A stretch of 64,000 nucleotides of DNA from Hymenobacter tibetensis. GTDB taxonomy: Bacteria > Bacteroidota > Bacteroidia > Cytophagales > Hymenobacteraceae. Positions 35,436 to 62,712 of this stretch are shown here, in pieces (position 1 is the stretch's first letter; every line of letters starts with the position of its first letter). Made by a program: the position numbers and the translations under genes. Location of the stretch: contig NZ_CP094669.1 in the NCBI RefSeq assembly GCF_022827545.1, positions 3,500,001-3,564,000 on the forward strand. Direction: 5' to 3'. Under the pieces are notes generated by a model. The model worked only from the letters and a program-made list of their open reading frames with translations. It searched no databases and had not been told where the DNA came from.

Positions 35436-36551
35436 CTACTCGGCCTGCGGCTGTTCGGCGGCCACCTGCGTTACTGGCGTGGTGGTAGTGGAGGTAGCCG
35501 TTTGCTCGGTGTTGTCGGAGCCCAAATAGTTGCCGTAGCCCACAATGATGGTAGACAGCACCACCGTCAGAATACCCAACGACACAGTGCGCATGGTGGC
35601 ACGGTTGGCGCCCCGCCATTCATGCAGATACAACCCCCACATTGAGCTGAACGCAATGATGAAGGCCATGTGCAGTGTCCAGCCCGAGAAACGGTAGACG
35701 CCCAGCTTGGTGTCGCCCATGCCGTAGAAGAAGAACTGGAAGTACCACAGCGTGCCCGCCATAGCGCAGAAGATGATGTTGCGTAGCGCCGGGAAGGTTG
35801 GGTTGAAATAATCGGTGTAGGTGCGGTTCTTGAGGTTGAGGTACAGGCACCACACGGCATTGGTGGTGAGGCCACCGAGCAGAATCACCACCAGAATGGC
35901 GTTGTTCTTATAGAGTGGGTCGGCGCCCTGCTGCACGGCCAAGTCGGCAATTTTCTGCCCCGCTTCCAGCCCGAAGGCGAAACAGGCGCTCATGATGCCC
36001 GAAAACACGGCCACCAGCAAGCCTTTCCGCAAATCATATTCGGCAATCGACTCGCCCTTCTCGGCCGCCGACAACGACTTCTCTTTCATGATGCCGGCCC
36101 GGCTGCAAATCAGGATACCAACCAGGCACACGAACAAGCCGAAGATTGTCACCTGCCCCGAGGCGGTACTCATCAGCTGCGACATGGTGCCGCCCCAGAT
36201 AGGTGGCACCAGCGTGCCCACCAACGCGCACAGCCCCATGATGACGGCCATGCCCAACGACAACCCTAGGTACCGCATAGCCAGCCCAAAGGTTAAGCCG
36301 CCAAACCCCCAGAGCACGCCCCAGAAGTACACCCAGAACAGCGTGCTGCTATCGGTCTGGCGCAACACGTCCGTTAGGTTCGGGATGGTGAGGAAACCGA
36401 GCAACCACGGAACCAGCAGCCACGAAACGATGCCGCCTACCAACCAGTAGCTTTCCCATGACCACCCTTTTACCTTTTTATAAGGCAGGTAGAAACTGCC
36501 GGATGCAAAGCCGCCCAATGCGTGAAAGATAACTCCCCAGATTACAGCCAT
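35436..36551 (-). CDS. rhaT: L-rhamnose/proton symporter RhaT
   Basis: 371 residues with about ten hydrophobic membrane segments. The N-terminus (WGVIFHALGGFASGSFYLPYKKVKGWSWE) and the segment WGFGGLTFGLAMRYLGLSLG are typical of the RhaT family; NALWCLY-like and MGDTKLG segments also fit. It imports L-rhamnose with a proton across the inner membrane. The promoter element common to the rhamnose genes ends 43 bp upstream of the ATG, and a terminator follows, so it is a single-gene unit. The C-terminus after the last helix is Thr/Gln-rich. Confidence 0.92.
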   Translation of the reverse strand: MAVIWGVIFHALGGFASGSFYLPYKKVKGWSWESYWLVGGIVSWLLVPWLLGFLTIPNLTDVLRQTDSSTLFWVYFWGVLWGFGGLTFGLAMRYLGLSLGMAVIMGLCALVGTLVPPIWGGTMSQLMSTASGQVTIFGLFVCLVGILICSRAGIMKEKSLSAAEKGESIAEYDLRKGLLVAVFSGIMSACFAFGLEAGQKIADLAVQQGADPLYKNNAILVVILLGGLTTNAVWCLYLNLKNRTYTDYFNPTFPALRNIIFCAMAGTLWYFQFFFYGMGDTKLGVYRFSGWTLHMAFIIAFSSMWGLYLHEWRGANRATMRTVSLGILTVVLSTIIVGYGNYLGSDNTEQTATSTTTTPVTQVAAEQPQAE

Positions 36552-36568: not shown

Positions 36569-36613
36569 CAAATCTGCCCTATATACCACTATAAACTGTC
36601 CTGTGCTCTCCTG
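36569..36613 (-). promoter_or_regulatory. Rhamnose-regulon promoter element upstream of rhaT
   Basis: Minus strand: CAGGAGAGCACAGGACAGTT (36594-36613), then 20 bp, then ATTTG (36569-36573). The same layout occurs upstream of rhaEW, rhaI and GH28. After ATTTG come TTGAAAAGCA, nearly identical to rhaEW. The distal GTT probably overlaps the -33 box and ATTTG is the core of the -7 box. Confidence 0.82.
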
Positions 36614-36671
36614 AGCAATTGGCAAAGCGCAGAAGCGCCTGATTTTCACAGGCTACTGGGTTCTATCCCAC

Positions 36672-45893: not shown

Positions 45894-46936
45894 GCTTCTG
45901 AAGAGTAGGTGAATCCATTAGTTTTCAAGCGGCTCACGGAGCCGAGGGGTTGACAACACAGCACAGTCCAACAAGCAGGCGCAGCTGCACCCCACGCAAG
46001 GGGCACACGGAGCCTACAAGGAAGGCCCCACACAAGACAGGCGAGTCTATCGCCGAGAGAAAGGAAAAACTGCTTTTAGGACGTAGCGAAGCCGAACACG
46101 CACGGTGCGTACAGCTAAAACGAGGCAGTGGGCGTGCCTCAGGCAACGGGGTAGAATGGTGCCTAGGACGTATCCTGGCAGGGCGTGGATGACAGAGGTA
46201 GGTGGGAGTACCTCACAAGCTGTTCCGGTAGCGACCGTGAACTGCTAAACGCGCGGATTCTGGCAGTTGTAGTCACTCAGCTGATACCCAGCGTGGAGCA
46301 GAGCAGTGCAAAAGCGACTTATGACAATGTTAATGATTAATTAACTATTGTGCAAATCTTCCATAAATTTTATTGATTCGTTACAAATGCAGCAATCAAA
46401 GACGCTTTTCATTGCAATCGTGTGCATACCATGTACAGCTCCACTGTATCCTCCTTGTTATAGGGTAGCTGGCAGCAGCCCCTCACGCATTACGGTAACG
46501 TACTGTTCTTTTCTCTCTATAGTCGCTGCATTCTGTCAGCAAGCGTTGTCTGTAGTAGCCTTACTGCAAAGCAAGGCTAGGCTGCCGCTCGTGCGTTGGT
46601 CAGACATAAGTACCGCGGGCTACATGCGGTGCAGACGCTTCAACTGAAACGGCTAGAGTCAGTGGGCACATAGTTGGAAGCCTTGGGGTGCTTTGGTTTC
46701 CAGCTTTATTGTGGTATATAGTAGGTAGCATGAAAGCCCCTTATTACTTGCCCAGCTTGCGGCCTGCTTACCTCGTTGCACTGCTGATAGCAGGCTTTTG
46801 GATTGGCACACGCAACGGCAAGCACCTAAGCGGGCCACCTATCCGGTGATTTGCTTCAACCCCAGGAAACTGAACTTTTCTTTGCCCCTATTTGAGAAGG
46901 GCAACCGATGAGGCCAACAATTATTTTACAAACGAG
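45894..46936. other. Long divergent intergenic region
   Basis: About 1 kb between SusC2 (-) and rhaEW (+), mixed composition with an AT-rich stretch near 46320-46390. No convincing conserved gene. A 39-codon frame with one membrane segment is listed separately. It should carry the SusC2 promoter; no sure match was found. Confidence 0.4.
46730..46849 (+). CDS. Possible small membrane protein, 39 residues
   Basis: ATG 46730 to TGA 46849. The translation has a hydrophobic stretch (YLVALLIAGFWIGTRNG) flanked by polar residues, as in small single-pass proteins, and normal codon use for this region. It is short and may be chance. No function proposed. Confidence 0.2.
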   Translation: MKAPYYLPSLRPAYLVALLIAGFWIGTRNGKHLSGPPIR

Positions 46937-46981
46937 CAGGAGAGTGCAGGAGGTTGTCCTTCTATATACAAGCGTAATTTG
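46937..46981 (+). promoter_or_regulatory. Rhamnose-regulon promoter element upstream of rhaEW
   Basis: CAGGAGAGTGCAGGAGGTTG (46937-46956, the most diverged of four copies, 16 of 20 matching the consensus), then 20 bp, then ATTTG (46977-46981) inside TAATTTG. ATTTG is followed by TTTAAAAGCA as at rhaT. It ends about 50 bp before the ATG. Confidence 0.75.
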
Positions 46982-47031
46982 TTTAAAAGCACTCAATTAT
47001 TGTTTTCTGGTAAATTCACAGAAGCACTACT

Positions 47032-49140
47032 ATGGAAAAAACGCTAACCTTTCAGCACGTGAGCTACCTCTGGGATGAGGCCCAGGCGCTGGCGCTCGGC
47101 GGCGACGAAGTGGCCCTCTTCCTCTACCGTTCTAACCTGCTCGGCGCTGACTTGCGCCTGACCAACTACGCCGGAGGCAACACCTCCTGCAAAATCCAGG
47201 AAACCAACCCCGTCACGGGCGAAGCGGCCGAGGTGATGTGGGTGAAAGGCTCGGGCGGCGACATTGGCACCTTAACCAAAGCCGGCTGCGCCAACCTCTA
47301 CGTTGAAAAGCTGCACCAGCTCAAAAATCGTTACCGCGGCCTAGCCCACGAAGACGAGATGGTGGGCTTGTTCGAGTACTGCCTCTTCGACCCCAAGTGC
47401 GCCACGCCTTCTATTGATACGCCACTGCACGGCTTGCTGCCCTTCAAGCACATCGACCACCTGCACCCCGATGCCCTGATTGCCATTGCTGCCAGCAAAG
47501 ACGGCGAGCAAATCATGCACGAGATTTGGGGCGACACGATGGGTTGGTTGCCGTGGCAGAAGCCAGGCTTCGACCTAGGCCTGCAACTCGAGAAAATCGT
47601 AGCCGACAACCCGCACCTGCGCGGCGTTATCCTCGGCGGCCACGGCCTCTTTACGTGGGGCGAAACCTCCTATTCCTGCTACCTCAACACGCTTGAAGTT
47701 ATCGAGCAAGCCGCCACCTACCTGGAAGCCAACTATGGCAAGAAGGGTCCCGTGTTCGGCGGCGTGAAGCGTGAGCAGACCCTAGATGCCACCCAGCGGC
47801 GTCAGCAAGCGGCTACCGTAATGCCCGTGCTGCGCGGCCTGGCTAGCAGCCAGCGCCGTATGCTCGGCCACTACACCGACGACGCCCGCGTACTCGAGTT
47901 CGTTAACTCCAACGACCTGCCCCGCCTGGCGCAGAAAGGCACTTCTTGCCCCGACCACTTCCTGCGCACCAAGATTCGTCCGCTCGTGCTCGACGCCGAC
48001 GTGATGCAAGGCGACGCAGCTAGCGTGAAAACGTATCTGGAGGAGCAGTTTGCGGCCTACCGCCAGGACTACGCCGCGTACTATGAGCGCAGCAAGCACG
48101 CTAATTCGCCAGCTATGCGCGACGCTAACCCGGTAATCATCCTGTGGCCCGGCGTGGGCATGTTCGCCTTCGCCAAAGACAAGCAGACCGCCCGCGTGGC
48201 TGCCGAGTTCTACACCAACGCCATCAACGTCATGAAAGGCGCGGAGGCCGTGAGCGAATACACGGGTCTGGCCGAACAGGAAGCCTTCAACATCGAGTAT
48301 TGGTTGCTGGAAGAAGCCAAGCTTCAGCGCATGGCCCCACCTAAAGCTCTTTCGGGCAAGGTGGCTTACGTGACCGGCGGCACCGGTGGCATCGGCAAAG
48401 CTATCTGCGAGGAGCTGCTTAAGTTCGGCGCCTGCGTGGTAGCCGTGGACCGCGACCGGCTGGAAGAAACGCAGGACGAACTGCGCAAGAAATTCGGGAA
48501 GGACAGCGCCCTGAGCGCGGCCATCAACGTGACCGATGCCGACAGCATCGCCGAGTCGTTGCGCCAGAGCGTCCTGCAATTCGGCGGCGTTGATATCATC
48601 GTCAACTGTGCCGGCCTTAGCATCAGCAAGCCCCTAGCCGACACCACCCAGGCCGACTGGGACATCCTCAACGATGTACTGGTGAAAGGCCAATTTCTGG
48701 TCAGCCAAGCGGCCGTTACCATCCTACGCCAGCAGGCCCTAGGCGGCGACATCGTGAACATTGCCAGCAAGAACGGACTGGTAGCCGGTCCGAACAACGT
48801 AGCCTACGGCACGGCCAAGGCCGCGCAGCTCCATATGAGCCGCCTGCTGGCCGCCGAACTCGGCGCCGACAAGATTCGCGTCAACACTGTTAACCCCGAC
48901 GCCGTGTTGCGCGGCTCCAAGATCTGGGAAGGCGACTGGGCCGCGGGTCGGGCCAAGGCCTACGGTATCTCGGTAGAAGAGCTGCCCGCGCACTATGCCA
49001 AGCGCACCTTGCTCGGCGAGGAGCTGCTCTCCGAAGATATTGCCAAGGCCGTACGCGTATTCGTGGATGGCTCATTGAGCAAAAGCACCGGCAACGTGCT
49101 CAACGTAGATGGCGGCGTAGCCATGGCCTTCGTCCGCTAA
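47032..49140 (+). CDS. rhaEW: Bifunctional rhamnulose-1-phosphate aldolase / L-lactaldehyde dehydrogenase
   Basis: 702 residues, two domains. The N-terminal class II aldolase part (about 1-420) has NYAGGNTSCK, WVKGSGGDIGTL, HPDALIAIA and GGHGLFTWGE with zinc-binding His. The C-terminal part (from about 442) is an SDR with TGGTGGIGKA, NCAGLS, SKNGLVAG and YGTAK (Tyr near 591). This fusion splits L-rhamnulose 1-phosphate into DHAP and L-lactaldehyde and oxidises the aldehyde to L-lactate with NAD. It carries the rhamnose promoter element and is followed by a perfect terminator, so it is a single-gene unit. Cytoplasmic. Confidence 0.93.
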   Translation: MEKTLTFQHVSYLWDEAQALALGGDEVALFLYRSNLLGADLRLTNYAGGNTSCKIQETNPVTGEAAEVMWVKGSGGDIGTLTKAGCANLYVEKLHQLKNRYRGLAHEDEMVGLFEYCLFDPKCATPSIDTPLHGLLPFKHIDHLHPDALIAIAASKDGEQIMHEIWGDTMGWLPWQKPGFDLGLQLEKIVADNPHLRGVILGGHGLFTWGETSYSCYLNTLEVIEQAATYLEANYGKKGPVFGGVKREQTLDATQRRQQAATVMPVLRGLASSQRRMLGHYTDDARVLEFVNSNDLPRLAQKGTSCPDHFLRTKIRPLVLDADVMQGDAASVKTYLEEQFAAYRQDYAAYYERSKHANSPAMRDANPVIILWPGVGMFAFAKDKQTARVAAEFYTNAINVMKGAEAVSEYTGLAEQEAFNIEYWLLEEAKLQRMAPPKALSGKVAYVTGGTGGIGKAICEELLKFGACVVAVDRDRLEETQDELRKKFGKDSALSAAINVTDADSIAESLRQSVLQFGGVDIIVNCAGLSISKPLADTTQADWDILNDVLVKGQFLVSQAAVTILRQQALGGDIVNIASKNGLVAGPNNVAYGTAKAAQLHMSRLLAAELGADKIRVNTVNPDAVLRGSKIWEGDWAAGRAKAYGISVEELPAHYAKRTLLGEELLSEDIAKAVRVFVDGSLSKSTGNVLNVDGGVAMAFVR

Positions 49141-49278: not shown

Positions 49279-49575
49279 GTTTAGGAGGTGTAGCTTCTTG
49301 AACCAAGTTAAAATCCGGTGCGTCGGCAACGTTCCCGGTGATTTTTACCAGGAAAAATTGGCTTTCTAACTGTTCAAACGAGCTTTTTTCAGTATTTTCA
49401 ACCACTTGGAATCCTTCCGCTTCCGCCCTTGCGGTTCGCGACGCGGCAGATCCAAGATGCTGTCACCGCCCTAGGCTTCTCTTATATCAATCGATTGCAT
49501 TACAGATAATTCCAGAGCCGCGCCGGTGTTTGGCAGTTGTTGCCCCTCAATTCCCACCTATTTCTTCCTTCCACC

Positions 49576-50667
49576 ATGATCTACAAATCTGCCTCCCGCG
49601 ACCGAAACCCCAGTATCGGTCTGGCCGAGAACCGAGAGTTGCTGGTAGCTCCCGAATTCTATAAGCTACAACTGAAGCCCCAGGACAAGACCCCGAAGTA
49701 CAAACAGATTGTGCAGTCGGTGATAACGGATATCGAGCGGGGTTTGCTGAAGAATGGTGACCAGCTTCCTTCTATCAGCGAGCTGAGCGTGGAATATTAC
49801 ATTGCCCGCGACACCGTGGAAAAAGCGTACCGCGAACTGCGTGAGCGAGGCTTTATTACGTCGGTGCAGGGCAAGGGCTACTACGTGCAGGCCAGCGACA
49901 CGACCAAACTCAAAATTCTGCTGGTATTCAACAAACTCAGCTCCTACAAGAAGATCATCTACTACGCTTTCCTGGAAGCCCTGGGTGAAGCAGCCACCGT
50001 CGACCTGCAGATTCACCACTACAACGTGCATTTGTTCGAGGAAATCATCGAGAAAAGCCTTGGCAAATACAACTACTACGTGGTGATGCCGCACTTCACC
50101 CTCGACACCGAAAAAGCCACGTATCAGAACATTCTCAACAGAATTCCCTCGCAGGAGCTCGTGCTGCTCGACAAGGATATTCCGGAGCTAAAGCACGACT
50201 GCCTGCGCGTGTTCCAGGACTTCGACAAAGACATTTTCAACGCCCTGGAAAACGCGGCTGATCTGCTAGAAAAGTATTCGCGCCTGGTGCTGATTCTGCC
50301 GAACGATGCCAACCACCCCGAGGAATTGCCGTGGGGTTTCCGCTCGTTCTGCCTGCTGCACAACAAGACGTTTGCCGTAGTGGAAAACGCCATGAACGAA
50401 GTGCTGCAAGTAGGAACCGCCTACGTAGTGATTCGGGAAACCGACTTGGTGGAACTGGTTAAGAAAATGCGCCAAACCAGCTACTTGCTCGGTCGTGAAG
50501 TGGGCATTATTTCGTTCAACGAAACTCCGCTGAAGGAGCTGCTCAACATGACGGTTATCACCACCGATTTTGAAGCCATGGGCCGCACCGCCGCCACCCT
50601 CCTGCTCGACAAGCAGCGCGTGAAAGTGAAGAACCCCTTTTATACCATTCGCCGCGGCTCCTTGTAG
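49576..50667 (+). CDS. GntR-family transcriptional regulator with sugar-binding-like C-terminus
   Basis: 363 residues from ATG 49576; a TTG-initiated longer frame starts at 49537 but adds no domain. The winged helix (about 40-110) has KYKQIVQSVITDIERG, QLPSISELSVEYYIARDTVEKA and FITSVQGKGYYV, typical of GntR. The rest (115-363) resembles a periplasmic-binding/LacI-type effector fold (ILLVFNKLS, VVMPHF, REVGIISFNETPL, TTDFEAMGRTAATLLLDK). It sits between rhaEW and rhaI, so it is the best candidate for the rhamnose regulator, sensing rhamnose or a pathway intermediate. Its DNA site is not proven. Confidence 0.88.
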   Translation: MIYKSASRDRNPSIGLAENRELLVAPEFYKLQLKPQDKTPKYKQIVQSVITDIERGLLKNGDQLPSISELSVEYYIARDTVEKAYRELRERGFITSVQGKGYYVQASDTTKLKILLVFNKLSSYKKIIYYAFLEALGEAATVDLQIHHYNVHLFEEIIEKSLGKYNYYVVMPHFTLDTEKATYQNILNRIPSQELVLLDKDIPELKHDCLRVFQDFDKDIFNALENAADLLEKYSRLVLILPNDANHPEELPWGFRSFCLLHNKTFAVVENAMNEVLQVGTAYVVIRETDLVELVKKMRQTSYLLGREVGIISFNETPLKELLNMTVITTDFEAMGRTAATLLLDKQRVKVKNPFYTIRRGSL

Positions 50668-50950: not shown

Positions 50951-50995
50951 CAGGAGAGTTCAGAACAGTTCGGCAGGGGTTGCCCAACTAATTTG
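50951..50995 (+). promoter_or_regulatory. Rhamnose-regulon promoter element upstream of rhaI-rhaB
   Basis: CAGGAGAGTTCAGAACAGTT (50951-50970, 18 of 20 to consensus), then exactly 20 bp, then ATTTG (50991-50995) within TAATTTG. The ATG of rhaI is 93 bp further on. Confidence 0.82.
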
Positions 50996-51088
50996 CTTGT
51001 ATCAATAAAGCTTCCACCACTTGGAGGGGAAACAAACTGGTCGGCTTGCAGCTGACCGGAGAGCCTTGCCTCCCAAACCTCGACCTTT

Positions 51089-52369
51089 ATGCTTTCCGAA
51101 TCCCGCATTCAAGACCTCAACCAGCCGTTGCTGGAAGAACATCAGTTGCAGTTCAACTTCCTGACCGATCTGCTGGCGCGCCGTCAGGTGGACGCCGGGC
51201 AAGTGGTGCAGCAGCTCATCGATTTTCAGGTGGCTATTCCGAGTTGGGCGCTTGGTACGGGCGGCACACGGTTTGGGCGGTTTCCGTTGGGTGGGGAGCC
51301 GCGCAACTTAGAAGAGAAAATCAACGACGTAGGCCTGCTCCATCAGCTTAATGGCTCGTCCAACTCTATTTCGCTGCACATTCCGTGGGATATTCCGCAG
51401 GATATTGCGGGCTTGCAGCAGCAGCTGAGCGAGCAGAAATTGGTGATTGACTCGGTGAATTCCAACACCTTCCAAGACCAAAAAGACCAGCATTATTCCT
51501 ACAAGTTTGGCTCGCTGAGCAACACTGAAGCCGGGGCTCGGCAGCAGGCCATTCAGCACAACATCGACTGCATCCGGCACGGCCAGGCCCTGAACGCCAA
51601 AACCCTGACCGTGTGGCTGGCCGATGGCTCTAACTTCCCGGGCCAGCAGCACTTGCGCCGCGCCTACCTACGCACCCAAGAGTCGTTGGCGGCCATTTAC
51701 GAGGCCATGCCTTCCGACTGGAACATGCTCATCGAGTACAAGCCCTATGAGCCCAATTTCTACTCCACGGTGATTCCAGATTGGGGCACCTCCTATTCGC
51801 TGTGCCAGTCGCTGGGCAAGAACGCCAATGTACTGGTTGATTTGGGGCACCACTTGCCCAACACTAACATCGAGCAGATTGTGGGGCGCTTGCAGCAGTT
51901 CGGGCGCCTCGGGGGCTTCCATTTCAATGGTTCGATGTACGGCGACGATGACCTGACGACCGGTAGCACCAAGCCATTCCAGTTGTTCCTCATCTTCAAC
52001 GAACTAGTAGACGCCGCCCGCGACCAGACCGTGACTAACCCGACGGTGGCGTACATGATTGACGCCAGCCACAACGTGAAAGATCCGCTCGAGGACTTGC
52101 TGCAATCGGTGGAGAACATCCTGAGTGCTTACGCTAAAGCGTTGCTCGTTGACCGCACGGCCTTGTATGAGGCCCAAGAGAAAAACGACGTAGTTCGGGC
52201 CGAGGAAATCATGCGCGATGCCTTCCTGCTAGACGTTCGGCCGCTGGTAGCCGAAGCGTACCGCCGGGCGGGTGGAGCGCTCCGGCCAGTGGCGGCCTAC
52301 CGCGCCGCTGGCATCCGGGAGCAGCTGATTCAGCAGCGCGGCAAACTCAGTTTATCCACTGGTCTTTAA
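51089..52369 (+). CDS. rhaI: L-rhamnose isomerase (Pseudomonas-type)
   Basis: 426 residues, TIM barrel of the xylose-isomerase-like fold. Metal ligands read in order: Glu in LIEYKPYEP, Asp in VLVDLGHHLPNTNIEQ, His in GGFHFNGSMYGDDDL, and Asp in YMIDASHNVKDP; the WALGTGGTRFGRF segment near the N-terminus also fits. It converts L-rhamnose into L-rhamnulose in the cytoplasm. It is followed after 13 bp by the kinase, so rhaI-rhaB is an operon behind the shared promoter element. This type differs from the E. coli RhaA length and motif set. Confidence 0.92.
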   Translation: MLSESRIQDLNQPLLEEHQLQFNFLTDLLARRQVDAGQVVQQLIDFQVAIPSWALGTGGTRFGRFPLGGEPRNLEEKINDVGLLHQLNGSSNSISLHIPWDIPQDIAGLQQQLSEQKLVIDSVNSNTFQDQKDQHYSYKFGSLSNTEAGARQQAIQHNIDCIRHGQALNAKTLTVWLADGSNFPGQQHLRRAYLRTQESLAAIYEAMPSDWNMLIEYKPYEPNFYSTVIPDWGTSYSLCQSLGKNANVLVDLGHHLPNTNIEQIVGRLQQFGRLGGFHFNGSMYGDDDLTTGSTKPFQLFLIFNELVDAARDQTVTNPTVAYMIDASHNVKDPLEDLLQSVENILSAYAKALLVDRTALYEAQEKNDVVRAEEIMRDAFLLDVRPLVAEAYRRAGGALRPVAAYRAAGIREQLIQQRGKLSLSTGL

Positions 52370-52382
52370 GCTAAGCACGGCG

Positions 52383-53711
52383 ATGAAAAAGTCTGTCTAC
52401 GCGGTATTCGACATCGGCAAAACCAATAAGAAGCTGATCCTTTTCGATGAGGATCGGCAGATTATTGACGAGAACCAACATATCTGTACCGATTCCATTG
52501 ACGATGATGGGTTTGTGTGCGACCACCTACCGCGCCTGACGCAGTGGGTGGAGGACCATTGGAAGATTTTGCGCAACCACCCGCACTACACAGTGAAGGG
52601 CGTCAACTTCACGGCGTACGGGGCCAGCTTTGTGCATCTCGATGCGGATGGTAAGCCGATGCTGCCCCTCTACAATTACCTCAAGCCGATGCCTGAGGAA
52701 GTATTGGAGAGCTTCTACGCCATGCTAAACCAGTCGCCGGAAGAGTTTGCGGCCGAAGCCTGCTCGCCGCAACTCGGTATGCTCAACTCGGGCTTGCAAT
52801 TGTATTGGCTGAAACATACCAAACCGGAGCAGTATGCACATATTCACACGTCGTTGCATTTGCCGCAGTACCTGTCGTACCTGATTTCGGGCGAGAAGTT
52901 CAGCGACTATACCTCGGTGGGCTGTCACACCAACCTGTGGGATTTCGAGCGGGGACAGTACCACGATTGGGTGCGCCGCGAGGGTATTGAAGAGAAGTTA
53001 GCGCCGCTCACCAAAGACTCTATTGCCTCGGTGGTGGACGGCATCATGGTGGGCGTTGGTTTGCACGACAGTTCTGCCGCGGTGATGCCTTATTTGGCCG
53101 AAACCGATGAACCGTTTGTCTTGGTTTCGACGGGTACCTGGTCGGTGACCATCAACCCGTTCAACAGCCAGCCTCTCACGCCGGAGCTGCTGCGGCGCGA
53201 CAGCCTGAGCTTCCTCACGCCCGGTGGCCAGCCCATGCGCGCCGCCCGCGTGTTCTTGGGCCGGGAGCACGACTATCAGGTGGACCGCATTGCCAAGCAC
53301 TTCCACGTAAAGCCAGATTTCTACCGCTCGCTCGTGTTGGCCCGCCCCTACGACGAAGCCTCGGCCAGCTTCCAGCCAGCCTGCATGGCCGGCACCGGCC
53401 CCTTCCCCGACCGGCCCGCCGCCGAGTGGGACATCACCGGCTTCCGCACCGCTTCCGATGCGTATCAGCACCTCATGCACGGCCTCATCAACCTGCTGCT
53501 CGAATCCATTCACCTGGTATGGCAGGGCGAGAAAATCATCTACGTCGATGGTGGCTTTGCGCGCAACCCGTTGTTCATGCAAACCCTGAGCTGGAACTTC
53601 CCCGGCGCCGAAATCCGGACCTTGGAAGTGCCGCAAGCCACTGCCCTTGGTGCCCTAGTACACCTAGAGCAAGGAGAAGCCTGGAAGAAAACTCAGTTGC
53701 TGTTTACTTGA
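52383..53711 (+). CDS. rhaB: L-rhamnulokinase, FGGY family
   Basis: 442 residues. N-terminal phosphate motif VFDIGKTNKKL, then TAYGASFVHLD, SVGCHTNLWDF, the second-domain STGTWSVTINPFN, and C-terminal YVDGGFARNPLFMQTL with Gly residues for ATP binding. FGGY kinases of this length next to the isomerase phosphorylate L-rhamnulose at O-1. Cytoplasmic. Second gene of the rhaI-rhaB operon, ended by the palindrome at 53794. Confidence 0.92.
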   Translation: MKKSVYAVFDIGKTNKKLILFDEDRQIIDENQHICTDSIDDDGFVCDHLPRLTQWVEDHWKILRNHPHYTVKGVNFTAYGASFVHLDADGKPMLPLYNYLKPMPEEVLESFYAMLNQSPEEFAAEACSPQLGMLNSGLQLYWLKHTKPEQYAHIHTSLHLPQYLSYLISGEKFSDYTSVGCHTNLWDFERGQYHDWVRREGIEEKLAPLTKDSIASVVDGIMVGVGLHDSSAAVMPYLAETDEPFVLVSTGTWSVTINPFNSQPLTPELLRRDSLSFLTPGGQPMRAARVFLGREHDYQVDRIAKHFHVKPDFYRSLVLARPYDEASASFQPACMAGTGPFPDRPAAEWDITGFRTASDAYQHLMHGLINLLLESIHLVWQGEKIIYVDGGFARNPLFMQTLSWNFPGAEIRTLEVPQATALGALVHLEQGEAWKKTQLLFT

Positions 53712-53976: not shown

Positions 53977-54717
53977 ATGAAAGTCGCCTTATTCGTGCCG
54001 TGCTACGTCGACCAGTTCTACCCGCAGGTAGGCATTGCGTCGTTGCAGCTCTTGGAGAAACTGGGCGTGAAGGCAGAATTTCCGGCCGCGCAAACGTGCT
54101 GCGGGCAGCCGCTAGCCAACAGCGGCTGCGAGAAGGATGCACTGCCTATTTACCGGCACTACGTCGATACCTTTTCCGACTACGACTACGTGGTAGCGCC
54201 CTCGGGTAGCTGTGTGTACCATGTGCGCAAACACTTCGACAAGCTAGAGCAAACCCCTGCCGTGCAGCAAGTGCGCACGTCCGCCTATGACCTAATTGAT
54301 TTCATTACCACTGTGCTCGGCGTAACAGAAATACCCGGCACGTTTCCGCACCGCGTGGGCTTGCACCTAAGCTGCCACGGCCAACGTGGCTTGCATCAAG
54401 CCAACGAATCGGAGATAACGCCGGTGCGCGACGGGCAACTACGCCGGTTGCTTGGCTCGCTCAACGGCATCGAGCTAACGGAGCTTGACCGCAACGACGA
54501 ATGCTGCGGCTTTGGCGGCACGTTTTGCGTATCGGAAGCCGCTATTTCGGCCCGCATGGGCCAAGATCGAGTGGCCGACCACGAACGCAACGGCACCACC
54601 GTCCTCACCGGCGGCGACATGTCGTGCCTTATGCACCTAGAAGGCATTGTGCGGCGCCGGCAGTTGCCGATGCGGGTACTGCACGCCGCCGAAATACTTA
54701 ACGGCACCCTCTCATGA
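53977..54717 (+). CDS. lutA: L-lactate oxidation subunit LutA (Cys-rich)
   Basis: 246 residues. Two CCG domains: FVPCYVDQFYP, CCGQPLANSG, SGSCVYHV and LHLSCHGQRG, DECCGFGGTFCV. This is the Cys-rich subunit of the L-lactate utilisation complex (YkgE type), which oxidises L-lactate to pyruvate together with LutB and LutC. Its stop overlaps the lutB start by four bases (ATGA). In this cluster it would consume L-lactate from RhaEW. No signal peptide; cytoplasmic or membrane-peripheral. Confidence 0.92.
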   Translation: MKVALFVPCYVDQFYPQVGIASLQLLEKLGVKAEFPAAQTCCGQPLANSGCEKDALPIYRHYVDTFSDYDYVVAPSGSCVYHVRKHFDKLEQTPAVQQVRTSAYDLIDFITTVLGVTEIPGTFPHRVGLHLSCHGQRGLHQANESEITPVRDGQLRRLLGSLNGIELTELDRNDECCGFGGTFCVSEAAISARMGQDRVADHERNGTTVLTGGDMSCLMHLEGIVRRRQLPMRVLHAAEILNGTLS

Positions 54718-56087
54718 ACCATGCTACCCGGGCCGCCAAATTTGTTGGCGATGCTGACCGTACCACTTGGCACGACGAAACCCTTTGGTTTGTGCGCGCC
54801 AAGCGCGACAAAGCCGTGTACGCCGTCCCTGAGTTTCAGGACCTGCGCGAGCTGGCCTCTCAAATCAAAGACCACACGCTGAGTAAGCTGGATACCTACC
54901 TCGAACAGTTCGAGGAACAAGCCAAGCGCAACGGCGTGCACATCCATTGGGCTGCCGATGCGGCCGAGCACAACGCCATCATCCTCGATATTATTCGGCA
55001 ACACAACGCCACGCGGGTGGTGAAGAGCAAGTCGATGCTGACCGAGGAATGCCACCTGAACCCACATCTGCTAAGCAACGGCATCGAGGTGGTGGACACC
55101 GATTTGGGCGAGCGTATCATTCAGCTGCGCGACGAAGCGCCGAGCCACTTGGTGCTGCCCGCCATTCACTTAAAGAAGGAAGACGTCGGCGAGACGTTCT
55201 TTAAGCACCTCGGTACGGCCAAAGGCGAAGTCGATCCGCAAGTTCTTACCGAAGCTGCCCGGCAGCACTTGCGCGCCCGGTTTTTGGCGGCGGAAGTAGC
55301 TATTTCGGGCGTCAACTTTGCGGTGGCTGAAACCGGTGGCGTGGTGGTGTGCACCAACGAAGGCAATGCCGACTTGGGCGTGAATCTGGCGCACGTGCAC
55401 ATTGCGGCCATGGGCATCGAGAAGCTGATTCCGCGGCTTTCCGACTTGGCGGTGTTTACGCGCCTGCTGGCTCGTAGCGCTACAGGTCAGCCCGTTACCA
55501 CTTACACCTCGCACTATACCAAGCCCGCAGCCGGTAAGGAGATGCACATCGTCATCGTGGACAATGGGCGCACCAAGCAGCTCGGCCGACCCGATTTCCG
55601 GGCTTCGCTGAAGTGCATTCGGTGCGGCGCTTGCATGAACACCTGCCCCGTGTACCGGCGCAGTGGTGGCCACTCCTACGACTTCACCGTGCCCGGCCCC
55701 ATCGGGGCCATTCTGTCGCCGAACATCGACATGAAGAAGCACAGCTCGTTGCCGTTTGCTTCCACGTTGTGCGGCTCCTGCTCCGACGTGTGCCCGGTCA
55801 AAATTGACATTCACACGCAGCTCTACAAGTGGCGGCAAGTGCTCGGCGAAGCCAACGAAATACCGGCCTCCAAGAAGTGGAGCATGAAGCTCATGGGGCG
55901 CTTACTAACTAGTCCGAAGGCGTTTGGGGTGGGCGGCAAGCTGGCCCGACACGGCATCAAGTACCTCCCCTACAGCCTCACCCACGCCCGGCACTTCAAC
56001 GTGTGGGCCGTGGCCCGGGAACTACCAACCCCGCCCAAGCAAAGCTTCCGCGAGTGGTATCAACAACAGGCCAATACTCCCGCATGA
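54714..56087 (+). CDS. lutB: L-lactate oxidation iron-sulfur subunit LutB
   Basis: 457 residues. An LUD-type domain in the N-terminal two thirds (GVHIHWAADAAEHN, VKSKSMLTEECHLN, AVAETGGVVVCTNEGN) is followed by two 4Fe-4S motifs: KCIRCGACMNTCPVYRR near 300 and LCGSCSDVCPVKIDIH near 350, and a C-terminal helix-rich tail. YkgF/LutB family. Start and stop overlap both neighbours by four bases, showing tight translational coupling in lutABC. Confidence 0.93.
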   Translation: MNHATRAAKFVGDADRTTWHDETLWFVRAKRDKAVYAVPEFQDLRELASQIKDHTLSKLDTYLEQFEEQAKRNGVHIHWAADAAEHNAIILDIIRQHNATRVVKSKSMLTEECHLNPHLLSNGIEVVDTDLGERIIQLRDEAPSHLVLPAIHLKKEDVGETFFKHLGTAKGEVDPQVLTEAARQHLRARFLAAEVAISGVNFAVAETGGVVVCTNEGNADLGVNLAHVHIAAMGIEKLIPRLSDLAVFTRLLARSATGQPVTTYTSHYTKPAAGKEMHIVIVDNGRTKQLGRPDFRASLKCIRCGACMNTCPVYRRSGGHSYDFTVPGPIGAILSPNIDMKKHSSLPFASTLCGSCSDVCPVKIDIHTQLYKWRQVLGEANEIPASKKWSMKLMGRLLTSPKAFGVGGKLARHGIKYLPYSLTHARHFNVWAVARELPTPPKQSFREWYQQQANTPA

Positions 56088-60974: not shown

Positions 60975-62408
60975 TTAAAAATTCATGCTGGCGCTGTTCT
61001 GCACCGCTATGGGCTCTTGGTTTTGCGCCGTGATGGTGAGGCCTTTCACGCTCCACCCTTTGGCGTGGTCTATTTTGCCAGCTTTGGCGCTGGTAATCAT
61101 AATGTTTTCGAGGGTGAAGTTTTCCAGCACCGAGGTAGGCAGCCCCTCGGCCGAAATAGCTTCGTCGGCAGCAGTGGCGCGCAGGTTGCGGATGGTTACG
61201 TTGCGAAAGTGCGGCGTGCCTTGCTCAGGACTTACCGTAGCAAGCATCTTCTTCCAGTGCTCGGGCAGCGTATTCTCGGTGTAGCCAGCGGGCAGGGCAG
61301 AATAACTGTAGGTCGGGTTCCAGTTCATGGTCATGATGATGGGCACGCGCACCGCCTCCATTTCTATGTCCTCCACTAGGATGTCTTCCACGATGCCGCC
61401 CCGGTTGGTAGCCGATTTAAGACGGATACCACATTTGGTGCCTTTCGCCTTGAGGCCGCGGGCAATGATGTGGCGGATACCACCCGACGTTTCGGAGCCG
61501 CACGTAAACAGCCCCCCACCAGCACCGGCCACGCAGTTCTGGATGATGACGTACTCGGTGGGCCGGTTCACGCGCAGACCGTCCGAATCGCGCCCGGCCT
61601 TGAGGCAGAAGTTGTCGTCGTTGCAGTCGATATCGCAGTTCTGCACCAGCACGTAGCTGCTCGAGTCGATGTCAATGCCGTCGGTGCTGGGGCCGTGGCC
61701 GCCTACATTGTTGCGCACGATCAGACCGTCAGCAGTAACGTTCTTGGAATACAAAATGTGGACCGTCCAGAACCCGGCGCGTTGCAGAGTGATGCCCTTC
61801 AGACTCACGTTCGAGGAATTGGCCACGATGAGCGTGCGCGGGCGCTTGGCGTCGTAATCAATAATCCAACGCAAACCCTTGGCGTCGTAGTCTTTGCGCA
61901 TACTCCAATAGTTATCCCAAAAGGGCTTGCCTTGCCCATCGACGGTGCCTTGACCGGTAATGGCCACGTTGTCTTGGTCGAGGATGTTGATGAGGCCGGC
62001 GGGCCACACCATTTCAACGCCCGCCACACGCGAAGGCAGCTCGGGATAGTCTTTGAGGTCTTGGCTGCCAAGCAGCGTGACGCCCTTATCGAGTTGCAGC
62101 GTGACACCTTTCTTGAGGAAAATAGAGCCAGTGAGGTACTCGCCGGGCGCAAACGTAACGATACCTCCTTTTTTGGCGGCCGCATCAATGGCTTTCTGGA
62201 TGGCCTGCGTATTGAGGGTCTTGCCGTCGGCTACTGCGCCGTACTTGCCGGCCGCGAAGATGGTTTTGCTGGAAGGGGTGGTTTTGGCGCCTACTTGCTT
62301 AACCCAAGCTGGATCAGCGGCGGCGGTAGAAGGTTGCGGTACGGGCTCCGTGAACGAGCTCATCCAAGCGAGCAGCGGCAACAGCAGCGAAAGGATGGGC
62401 TTTAGCAT
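60975..62408 (-). CDS. GH28 polygalacturonase / rhamnogalacturonan hydrolase-like
   Basis: 477 residues from ATG 62408 (signal MLKPILSLLLPLLAWMSS); the longer frame to 62543 lacks homology. Right-handed beta-helix with the GH28 motifs: PSTDGIDIDSS (first Asp), NDDNFCLKAG (Asp pair), GSETSGG in place of GHG, and GIRLKSATNRGG (the RxK motif). The GSE variant is common in bacterial exo-acting or RG-directed members. It hydrolyses galacturonate linkages in pectin. It has its own copy of the rhamnose promoter element, so it is probably induced by rhamnose together with rhaT, rhaI and rhaEW. Confidence 0.92.
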   Translation of the reverse strand: MLKPILSLLLPLLAWMSSFTEPVPQPSTAAADPAWVKQVGAKTTPSSKTIFAAGKYGAVADGKTLNTQAIQKAIDAAAKKGGIVTFAPGEYLTGSIFLKKGVTLQLDKGVTLLGSQDLKDYPELPSRVAGVEMVWPAGLINILDQDNVAITGQGTVDGQGKPFWDNYWSMRKDYDAKGLRWIIDYDAKRPRTLIVANSSNVSLKGITLQRAGFWTVHILYSKNVTADGLIVRNNVGGHGPSTDGIDIDSSSYVLVQNCDIDCNDDNFCLKAGRDSDGLRVNRPTEYVIIQNCVAGAGGGLFTCGSETSGGIRHIIARGLKAKGTKCGIRLKSATNRGGIVEDILVEDIEMEAVRVPIIMTMNWNPTYSYSALPAGYTENTLPEHWKKMLATVSPEQGTPHFRNVTIRNLRATAADEAISAEGLPTSVLENFTLENIMITSAKAGKIDHAKGWSVKGLTITAQNQEPIAVQNSASMNF

Positions 62409-62551
62409 ATAGGACCGGAATGGAGGAAACGTAACTTTCCTGAAGCTACCTCTTTTGACGTGACGCGTGGCAGGGTTGGGCAAGACGGATTCCCACGGCC
62501 GCAATTCCCGGTTCCGCCACGCGTCAGTCAAAAGGTACTTCACTCACATTC

Positions 62552-62596
62552 CAAATCTGCCTAATTACTTCCGTAGAACTGTCCCGCACTCTCCTG
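62552..62596 (-). promoter_or_regulatory. Rhamnose-regulon promoter element upstream of GH28
   Basis: Minus strand: CAGGAGAGTGCGGGACAGTT (62577-62596, 19 of 20 to consensus), then exactly 20 bp, then ATTTG (62552-62556), preceded by GCAG as at rhaT. It is 144 bp from ATTTG to the GH28 ATG. The 300-bp gap holds nothing else clear. Confidence 0.82.
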
Positions 62597-62712
62597 CTAA
62601 AAGGTTTTTTTACGCTGAAATTTCTACTTTCAATTAAGGTGAAGCTCCAAGCTATTCTGCTCTATGAGCTGGCCTATATTCCTCGCATTTGTAGAAATAG
62701 CGGAAACGCATT

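Follow-up and report, generated by a model that had tools for sequence, protein, structure and literature searches.

The locus raises the question of what four promoters in front of rhamnose and pectin genes have in common and which protein might read it. A preliminary description of the window, by which we mean the whole 64-kb stretch of DNA analysed, had proposed that the four share a 20-bp element with ATTTG at a fixed distance. The 20-mers were found at all four coordinates and strands, their matches to the consensus of that description, CAGGAGAGTGCAGGACAGTT, amount to 16/20 at rhaEW, 18/20 at rhaI, 18/20 at rhaT and 19/20 at the GH28 site, which reproduces the earlier counts, and ATTTG stands exactly 20 bp past the 20-mer at each of the four sites, in the same orientation towards the gene. 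The features concerned are as follows.

35436..36551, minus strand: rhaT (Pfam)
36569..36576, minus strand: -7 box of rhaT, CAGATTTG, CAnnTTTG
36594..36613, minus strand: tandem-repeat element of the rhaT promoter, 18/20
46937..46956, plus strand: tandem-repeat element of the rhaEW promoter, 16/20 to the earlier consensus
46975..46982, plus strand: -7 box of rhaEW, TAATTTGT, TAnnTTGY type, TTTG core at 46978-46981
47032..49140, plus strand: rhaEW, rhamnulose-1-P aldolase / lactaldehyde dehydrogenase (TIGR02632, NF006189 and NF006191 above the NCBIfam cut-off)
49657..50667, plus strand: regulator gene, GntR wHTH and LacI-type sensor (Pfam PF00392, PF13377)
50951..50970, plus strand: tandem-repeat element of the rhaI-rhaB promoter, 18/20
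50989..50996, plus strand: -7 box of rhaI, TAATTTGC, TAnnTTGY type, TTTG core at 50992-50995
51089..52369, plus strand: rhaI, L-rhamnose isomerase (best matches TIGR02629 and TIGR02635, both under their curated cut-offs)
52383..53711, plus strand: rhaB, FGGY sugar kinase (Pfam FGGY_N, FGGY_C_2)
60975..62408, minus strand: GH28 pectinase gene (Pfam; predicted start codon at 62408)
62446..62551, minus strand: conserved structured RNA, about 106 nt (fold z, covariation, covariance model)
62552..62559, minus strand: -7 box of the structured-RNA / GH28 promoter, CAGATTTG, CAnnTTTG
62577..62596, minus strand: tandem-repeat element of the structured-RNA / GH28 promoter, 19/20

The mechanically called ORF of the regulator begins at 49537 and its conserved part at about 49657; the listed ORF of GH28 starts at 62543 and runs back into the structured RNA. 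Downstream of rhaT, on the same strand to 26348, lie susC, susD, the gene for an RGL11 lyase and two GDSL genes (Pfam), and the whole run may form one operon. Lactate oxidation genes of the lutA-lutB type lie downstream of rhaIB (53977-56087 of the window), and lutA has an element of its own in four Spirosoma loci (L055, L056, L059 and L062), with TTTG one base further.

The earlier judgement that chance is an unlikely source of the arrangement is borne out. With up to 3 mismatches, the 20-mer gave 3 matches in the window against 0.01 expected, a count that does not include the rhaEW site, which has 4 mismatches to CAGGAGAGTGCAGGACAGTT. The 45-bp pattern, again with up to 3 mismatches, occurred at three of the four places and at none in 100 shuffles, and the chance of five consecutive identical columns in all four sites within 50 columns was estimated at about 8e-8.

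Structure of the element and promoter geometry

The 20-bp element is indeed shared, but its description has to be amended to a direct repeat with a period of 10 bp. It reads CAGGAGAGTn-CAGGAGAGTT, its halves agree at nine of ten positions, and shuffled letters reached this agreement in 6 of 100,000 trials. The consensus of the 40 sites from which the sequence model described below was built is CAGGAGAGTnCAGGAGAGTT. A palindromic operator was considered and rejected, the best inverted symmetry being 3/6 compared with 9/10 for the direct repeat; the resulting mismatch with AraR-type operators counts only if the GntR-type regulator is the binder.

According to the excerpted text of PMC9723704, TAnnTTTG spans -12 to -5 in Bacteroidota promoters, and TAnnTTGY is handled there as a motif separate from sigma-A. 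On this scale, with start sites placed by prediction, the repeat would cover about -49 to -30, and its downstream half would lie at the place of the -33 box. The repeat is separated from the TAnnTTTG-type -7 box by 17 bp. It had been suggested that the element is operator and promoter at once: the promoter overlap fits the sequence, and the operator part is putative.

Among 127 sites labelled rhaEW, rhaI, rhaT or GH28 (one chance match and two of three register-shifted duplicates being left out), TTTG lies 21 bases past the element in 101, 20 bases in nine and 22 bases in five. The spacer between element and TTTG carries little information, as calculated for loci before L077 with TTTG at the expected place. 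The reading of ATTTG as the -7 box has to be amended: the common core is TTTG, and its spacing shifts by one base in either direction in some relatives. Nor is the form of the box constant, since nine of the 40 rhaI sites, at promoters of relatives, are without TTTG, and all nine read TAnnTTGC. The -7 boxes in the window are variants only (CAnnTTTG or TAnnTTGY), and 21 of 33 non-Hymenobacter sites agree with TAnnTTTG in at least 5 of 6 letters, start sites being predicted here too. The CAnnTTTG box at rhaT is non-consensus yet conserved. The promoters fall into pairs, CAnnTTTG being used by rhaT and the RNA, and the boxes of rhaI and rhaEW fitting TAnnTTGY; in four loci of other genera (L114, L115, L121 and L123), the -7 core is TTTA instead of TTTG.

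Sites elsewhere in the genome

An exact 45-bp degenerate pattern gave no match in 81 genomes of the genus, our own included, and because it was too strict, a sequence model (R1) of 20 positions, built from 40 sites of which two lie in the window, was adopted. R1 ranked the four window sites first in the own genome (6,328,632 bases in 7 contigs; 150 of 1904 candidates scored). The proposed link to rhamnose and pectin genes is supported. Ranks 5 to 8 lie upstream of a SusC gene, a GH43-like gene, a second SusC gene and a gene that matches no family, and no ORF of 100 aa begins downstream of the ninth match. A genome-wide scan, which the preliminary description had recommended, thus returned few matches, mainly at related genes, and not the many at unrelated genes that would have refuted it.

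A loose pattern (up to 3 mismatches) yielded 16 matches in the own genome compared with one for a reversed control; seven of these stand upstream of rhamnose or pectin-type genes (three in the window, and L004, L005, L012 and L014), and the other nine look like chance, most of them lying within ORFs. The loose pattern adds sites at a GH2 gene and at a second GH28, and in the own genome or in relatives further sites were seen upstream of GH43-like, SusC, GH2, UxaC, GH106 and GH88 genes, several of the sites outside the window being without TTTG at +20. The four sites first described are all real, and to them have to be added those outside the window. Downstream of an element at C1:3485720 of the own genome (G000; L103:5835-7235), a 466-aa protein is encoded for which no Pfam or NCBIfam family match was found, and a similar protein stands behind an element in G032 (L204).

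Conservation in relatives and co-occurrence with the regulator

With the regulator protein as query, 80 loci were collected from named genomes, mostly of Hymenobacter and also of Spirosoma, Dyadobacter, Emticicia, Saprospiraceae and others; 51 of them carry rhaT, rhaEW or rhaI, and ten more RGL11, GH28 or a GDSL relative. Allowing 4 mismatches, the 80 loci held 150 matches to the element and one to the reversed consensus. In a gene-anchored search (450 bp upstream to 60 bp into the gene, up to 5 mismatches), the relative loci with upstream sequence had the element at rhaEW in 42/48, at rhaI in 40/43 and at rhaT in 42/42, with 0 for the reversed control at each gene. The element is therefore kept upstream of orthologous rha genes, as the preliminary description had required of a genuine site. 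The six other rhaEW upstreams (Arsenicibacter, Emticicia and Telluribacter) have 6 mismatches, and the control equals this in two. No site was found at gntR itself in any of the 80 loci (best match 6 mismatches, the gene's own strand searched), and autoregulation of the regulator was rejected on this ground.

In L035, a close named relative, the two genes rhaT and rhaEW point away from each other, with their elements within about 100 bp, and in the window the two promoters are 10.3 kb apart, the interval holding a SusCD pair, a DUF4953 metallopeptidase and an M20-type peptidase. The alignment to L035 ends at window position 36617 and restarts at 46934, just outside both elements. Element and -7 box are intact on either side of this stretch, so that each element probably acts on the promoter in which it lies. 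Divergent, neighbouring promoters of rhaT and rhaEW occur in L017 and L018 as well.

Of 194 genomes of the order, 51 have rhaEW, 39 have the regulator (E<=1e-80) and 34 have R1 matches at E<=1, a threshold at which chance matches are expected. In a sample of the genus, sites are present in each of the 6 genomes with the regulator and absent from the 7 without it, a comparison that is confounded because rhaEW shows the identical 6/7 split, so that regulator and targets are inseparable. The test was therefore extended to 46 rhaEW upstreams of other genera by means of a matrix of the 33 Hymenobacter and own sites, from which the 7 non-Hymenobacter rows of the 40 were excluded, and a site was called at p<=0.05 from 300 resampled sequences for each upstream. 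A significant site was present in 14/15 upstreams where the regulator homologue reaches 60% identity or more, in 19/24 where it lies at 38-59%, and in 0/7 without a homologue (none at E<=1e-30; one of these genomes is 62% complete). Site and regulator thus occur together (33/39 vs 0/7; Fisher 3.2e-5, ignoring kinship), with 6 of the 39 upstreams that have a homologue giving no significant site. A second rhaEW copy in G084 was counted as a miss in this test; its use as an internal negative control was dropped, as it sits in a longer same-strand gene run. Among the 33 non-Hymenobacter sites (30 distinct), the preferred offset of TAnnTTTG (at least 5/6 letters) is 17, seen in 21, whereas each other offset is seen in 5 or fewer; because the -7 box is absent from the matrix, this peak is independent support for the geometry. 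Beside rhaEW in the seven loci without the regulator, none of 10 ORFs was an AraC-type replacement regulator.

The regulator protein

The preliminary description had named the GntR protein as candidate binder, and it is the best candidate. Its N-terminus is a GntR winged helix (PF00392, 51.2 bits; cut-off 27) and its C-terminus a LacI/GalR-type sensor (PF13377, 29.3 bits; cut-off 26.5). Its PDB matches include 4egy, the DNA-binding domain of the arabinose repressor, and the structural model (mean pLDDT 90.5) matches LacI-family chains with a best E of 5.3e-12. By Pfam, the protein has neither an aminotransferase-like sensor domain nor an AraC, DeoR or LacI DNA-binding domain, and its NCBIfam matches of MocR type are limited to the DNA-binding part. 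In the model, the linker between the DNA-binding and sensor domains measures about 7 residues, which would make it awkward for a two-fold dimer to sit on a direct repeat.

Two homologues of 42-43% identity (G175 and G223) have SKRTV or AKRTV for ARDTV in the recognition helix, and the elements in these genomes, compared by eye, are changed as well (p 0.027 in G175, non-significant in G223). A paralogue of the regulator (66-68% identity) stands beside a sugar kinase gene at C1:4049063 of G032 and in L067, and L205 has element-like sites upstream of a kinase gene and a SusC gene.

A structured RNA behind the fourth site

The fourth site had been described as a GH28 promoter. The site is real, but a conserved structured RNA of about 100 nt stands between it and the predicted GH28 start at 62408, and often there is no GH28 behind it. 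The fold of positions 62430-62550 has an energy of -53.2 kcal/mol (z -5.3). When the window sequence was aligned with those of 16 Hymenobacter loci (from 19 pattern matches, three of which are not followed by the RNA), two-sided changes were found in 11 of 17 stem pairs, and the alignment held 39 two-sided cells compared with 12.0 after shuffling and at most 9 in slid controls.

A covariance model (R2) was built solely from sequence downstream of TTTG, and the window RNA, one of its training rows, scored 97.8 bits. At E<=0.01, R2 found the RNA in 35 of 120 Hymenobacter genomes. Upstream sequences cover 30 of these, all but the five weakest (G286, G060, G079, G018 and G282), and the tandem repeat and a -7 core precede the RNA in 30/30 loci, the core being TTTG in 29 and TTTA in L236. 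As 18 of the 30 loci hold R2 training sequences that had first been picked by the element, the fair count is that of the RNA loci outside the training set, 12/12 of which have the element in front. When 30 RNAs were aligned with MAFFT (those of 29 loci from this set plus L054; without L223, which has the sequence of L222, and without an antisense match in L225), the alignment had 91.9% paired cells, two-sided changes in 13 of 16 pairs, and 70 two-sided cells compared with 22.0 shuffled and at most 17 slid.

The RNA is also distributed with the regulator, which is present in 53 of the 120 Hymenobacter genomes, among them every one of the 30 whose RNA match reaches E<=1e-4 (Fisher 3.7e-14, ignoring kinship); after removal of the 18 training genomes, the figures are 12/12 vs 23/90 (Fisher 6.2e-7, ignoring kinship). 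Among the five weaker RNA matches, G060 and G282 are without the regulator. In the order, the RNA was matched in 11 of 291 genomes, all of one family.

GH28 follows the RNA in 11 of the 30 loci, window included, and is absent within 1.5 kb in 19. In L225 and L231, the 29-residue GH28 matches stem from the RNA, because the ORF used as GH28 query extends into it. When 17 of the 19 GH28-less loci (L235 and L244 left out) were aligned alone, two-sided changes occurred in 13 of 23 predicted pairs, and identity, which is 0.55-0.72 within the RNA, dropped to 0.17 by about +115. Another conserved island follows at about +237 to +273; its L218 row contains a hairpin with a run of T behind it, a possible terminator.

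Rfam returned no family match for the RNA in five loci, and for window positions 62300-62700 RF02132 alone, at 13.7 bits under a cut-off of 60. A coding sequence was rejected, the longest ORFs of 17 loci varying in frame and length (22-47 aa) with none shared, and so was a repeat element, since a 28-base segment, with 3 mismatches allowed, occurs at one place in its own genome. For 11 genes of the rha locus, examined in up to 16 genomes, pairing of the RNA with the gene start gave no consistent signal; the best mean z was -0.92, for rhaT with the 5' part, 3 of 16 being below -2. In the own genome, the 12-base antisense of the loop has its only exact match at the RNA itself.

Mode of action and alternative explanations

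We consider it probable that a GntR/LacI-type regulator binds the repeat and activates rhamnose and pectin genes together with the structured RNA. The four sites would form the core of a rhamnose / rhamnogalacturonan regulon, in which the protein encoded between rhaEW and rhaI would bind CAGGAGAGTn twice, one helical turn apart, and its LacI-type domain would sense rhamnose or a derivative. Most likely, the ligand-bound regulator would be a class II activator that recruits sigma-A RNA polymerase in place of the -33 box. Its targets would be the genes for taking up and breaking down rhamnose, genes for pectin and rhamnogalacturonan, and a presumably transcribed, structured RNA of about 100 nt that would either stand alone or serve as leader of the GH28 pectinase gene. 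As to the direction of control, we lean towards activation, because the position is constant, the regulator's own gene has no site and the -7 boxes are weak, and regard repression as doubtful.

The main alternative is that the same regulator on the same element is a repressor, which would cover the -33 region and keep RNA polymerase out as long as rhamnose has not released the protein. The overlap with the -33 region suits such a repressor and could by itself fix orientation and spacing, and AraR of the GntR family is predicted, in the excerpt of PMC8579813, to repress from sites in promoters or 5' UTRs. A position constant within about 1 bp across genes and many genera, the missing site at the regulator's own gene and the conserved non-consensus CAnnTTTG at rhaT speak against repression, none of them decisively, and we hold it to be unlikely. 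It appears improbable that the element is bound by a different transcription factor from another part of the genome, with the GntR protein a mere bystander in the cluster. Gene neighbourhood and sites are co-inherited, which would suit a bystander, and DeoR-type rhamnose regulators typically have direct repeats of 10-11 bp (excerpts of PMC3870299); however, a regulator homologue is present in each of the 33 non-Hymenobacter genomes where a site is significant, and none of the 7 without one has a site, G132 has the site with its homologue on a separate contig (40% identity, orthology uncertain), and in G175 and G223 the recognition helix has changed alongside the element. Least probable of all is a promoter part for an alternative sigma factor with no operator in it, for which the fixed distance to the -7 box and the fit of the rhaEW and rhaI boxes to TAnnTTGY, a motif set apart from sigma-A in the text excerpted from PMC9723704, could be cited; against it, TAnnTTTG is the commonest -7 box in other genera, and a repeat of 20 bp greatly exceeds a -33 box in length.

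The RNA, for its part, could be a mere 5' leader of GH28, for example a stabiliser of its mRNA, with no role of its own. The 11 of 30 loci with GH28 downstream agree with this, but 17 of the 19 loci that have no GH28 in 1.5 kb keep the stem and conservation drops soon past it, so that we find such a restricted role rather unlikely. A wider proposal is offered tentatively and with slightly less than even confidence: an AraR-type GntR regulator would have turned class II activator on a one-turn repeat across much of Cytophagales, and in Hymenobacter it would also drive a stand-alone RNA of a new family, adding a post-transcriptional or ligand-sensing arm to the response to rhamnose / rhamnogalacturonan.

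Comparison with known systems

The nearest relatives of the proposed system differ from it in operator, sensor domain or protein family. The AraR operator is usually palindromic, unlike the tandem direct repeat found here, which is fixed to the promoter. As described in the excerpts of PMC4494728, the AraR subfamily resembles our regulator in the fusion of a GntR winged helix to a LacI/GalR-type domain and in the joint control of sugar uptake and catabolism with polysaccharide genes; AraR is, however, a repressor of Firmicutes, whereas the present protein belongs to Bacteroidota, is associated with rhamnose genes and has no site at its own gene. Two points count against our best explanation, namely that GntR proteins as a rule bind inverted repeats and that AraR, of another phylum, has its sites at repressor positions (PMC5320631, PMC4494728, PMC8579813).

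Direct repeats are known from other GntR-type proteins. The MocR-type activators GabR, TauR and PdxR, in the excerpted account of PMC5320631, likewise combine a GntR DNA-binding domain with direct-repeat operators, but their repeats lie two or three helical turns apart instead of one, and their aminotransferase sensor domain is absent from our regulator. NanR, NagQ and FarR of the FadR/HutC type are named as direct-repeat exceptions among GntR proteins in the part of PMC4494728 that treats them, and by description they have other sensor domains. The rhamnose regulators of the AraC, DeoR and LacI families control the same pathway including RhaEW and lactate genes (excerpts of PMC3870299), and DeoR motifs there are also direct repeats of 10-11 bp, but these protein families differ from GntR; neither 'GntR' nor 'Cytophag' occurs in the text of PMC3870299. 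The passages available from earlier rhamnose regulon studies cover Bacteroidales and not Cytophagales. The RNA may be likened, by description, to Bacteroides small RNAs such as GibS, which belong to the same phylum and are tied to sugar use. In the titles and starts of abstracts retrieved by searches of the open-licence PMC literature, neither the motif nor the regulator's operator nor the RNA is named, and RegPrecise or supplementary logos may hold an earlier description.

What the comparison leaves to this locus is a regulon that appears to span much of the order, with a putative operator, a one-turn direct repeat, placed within the promoter, and a covarying RNA without Rfam family that is seemingly under the same control. 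In layout, the promoter resembles those of PhoB-type activators, where two direct repeats about one helical turn apart replace the -35 box; the likeness is one of layout only, as PhoB is unrelated to the regulator here. The promoter code is readable (repeat, 17 bp, TAnnTTTG) and predicts targets in many unannotated genomes, and the regulon offers a sharp test of whether an AraR-type protein can activate on direct repeats.
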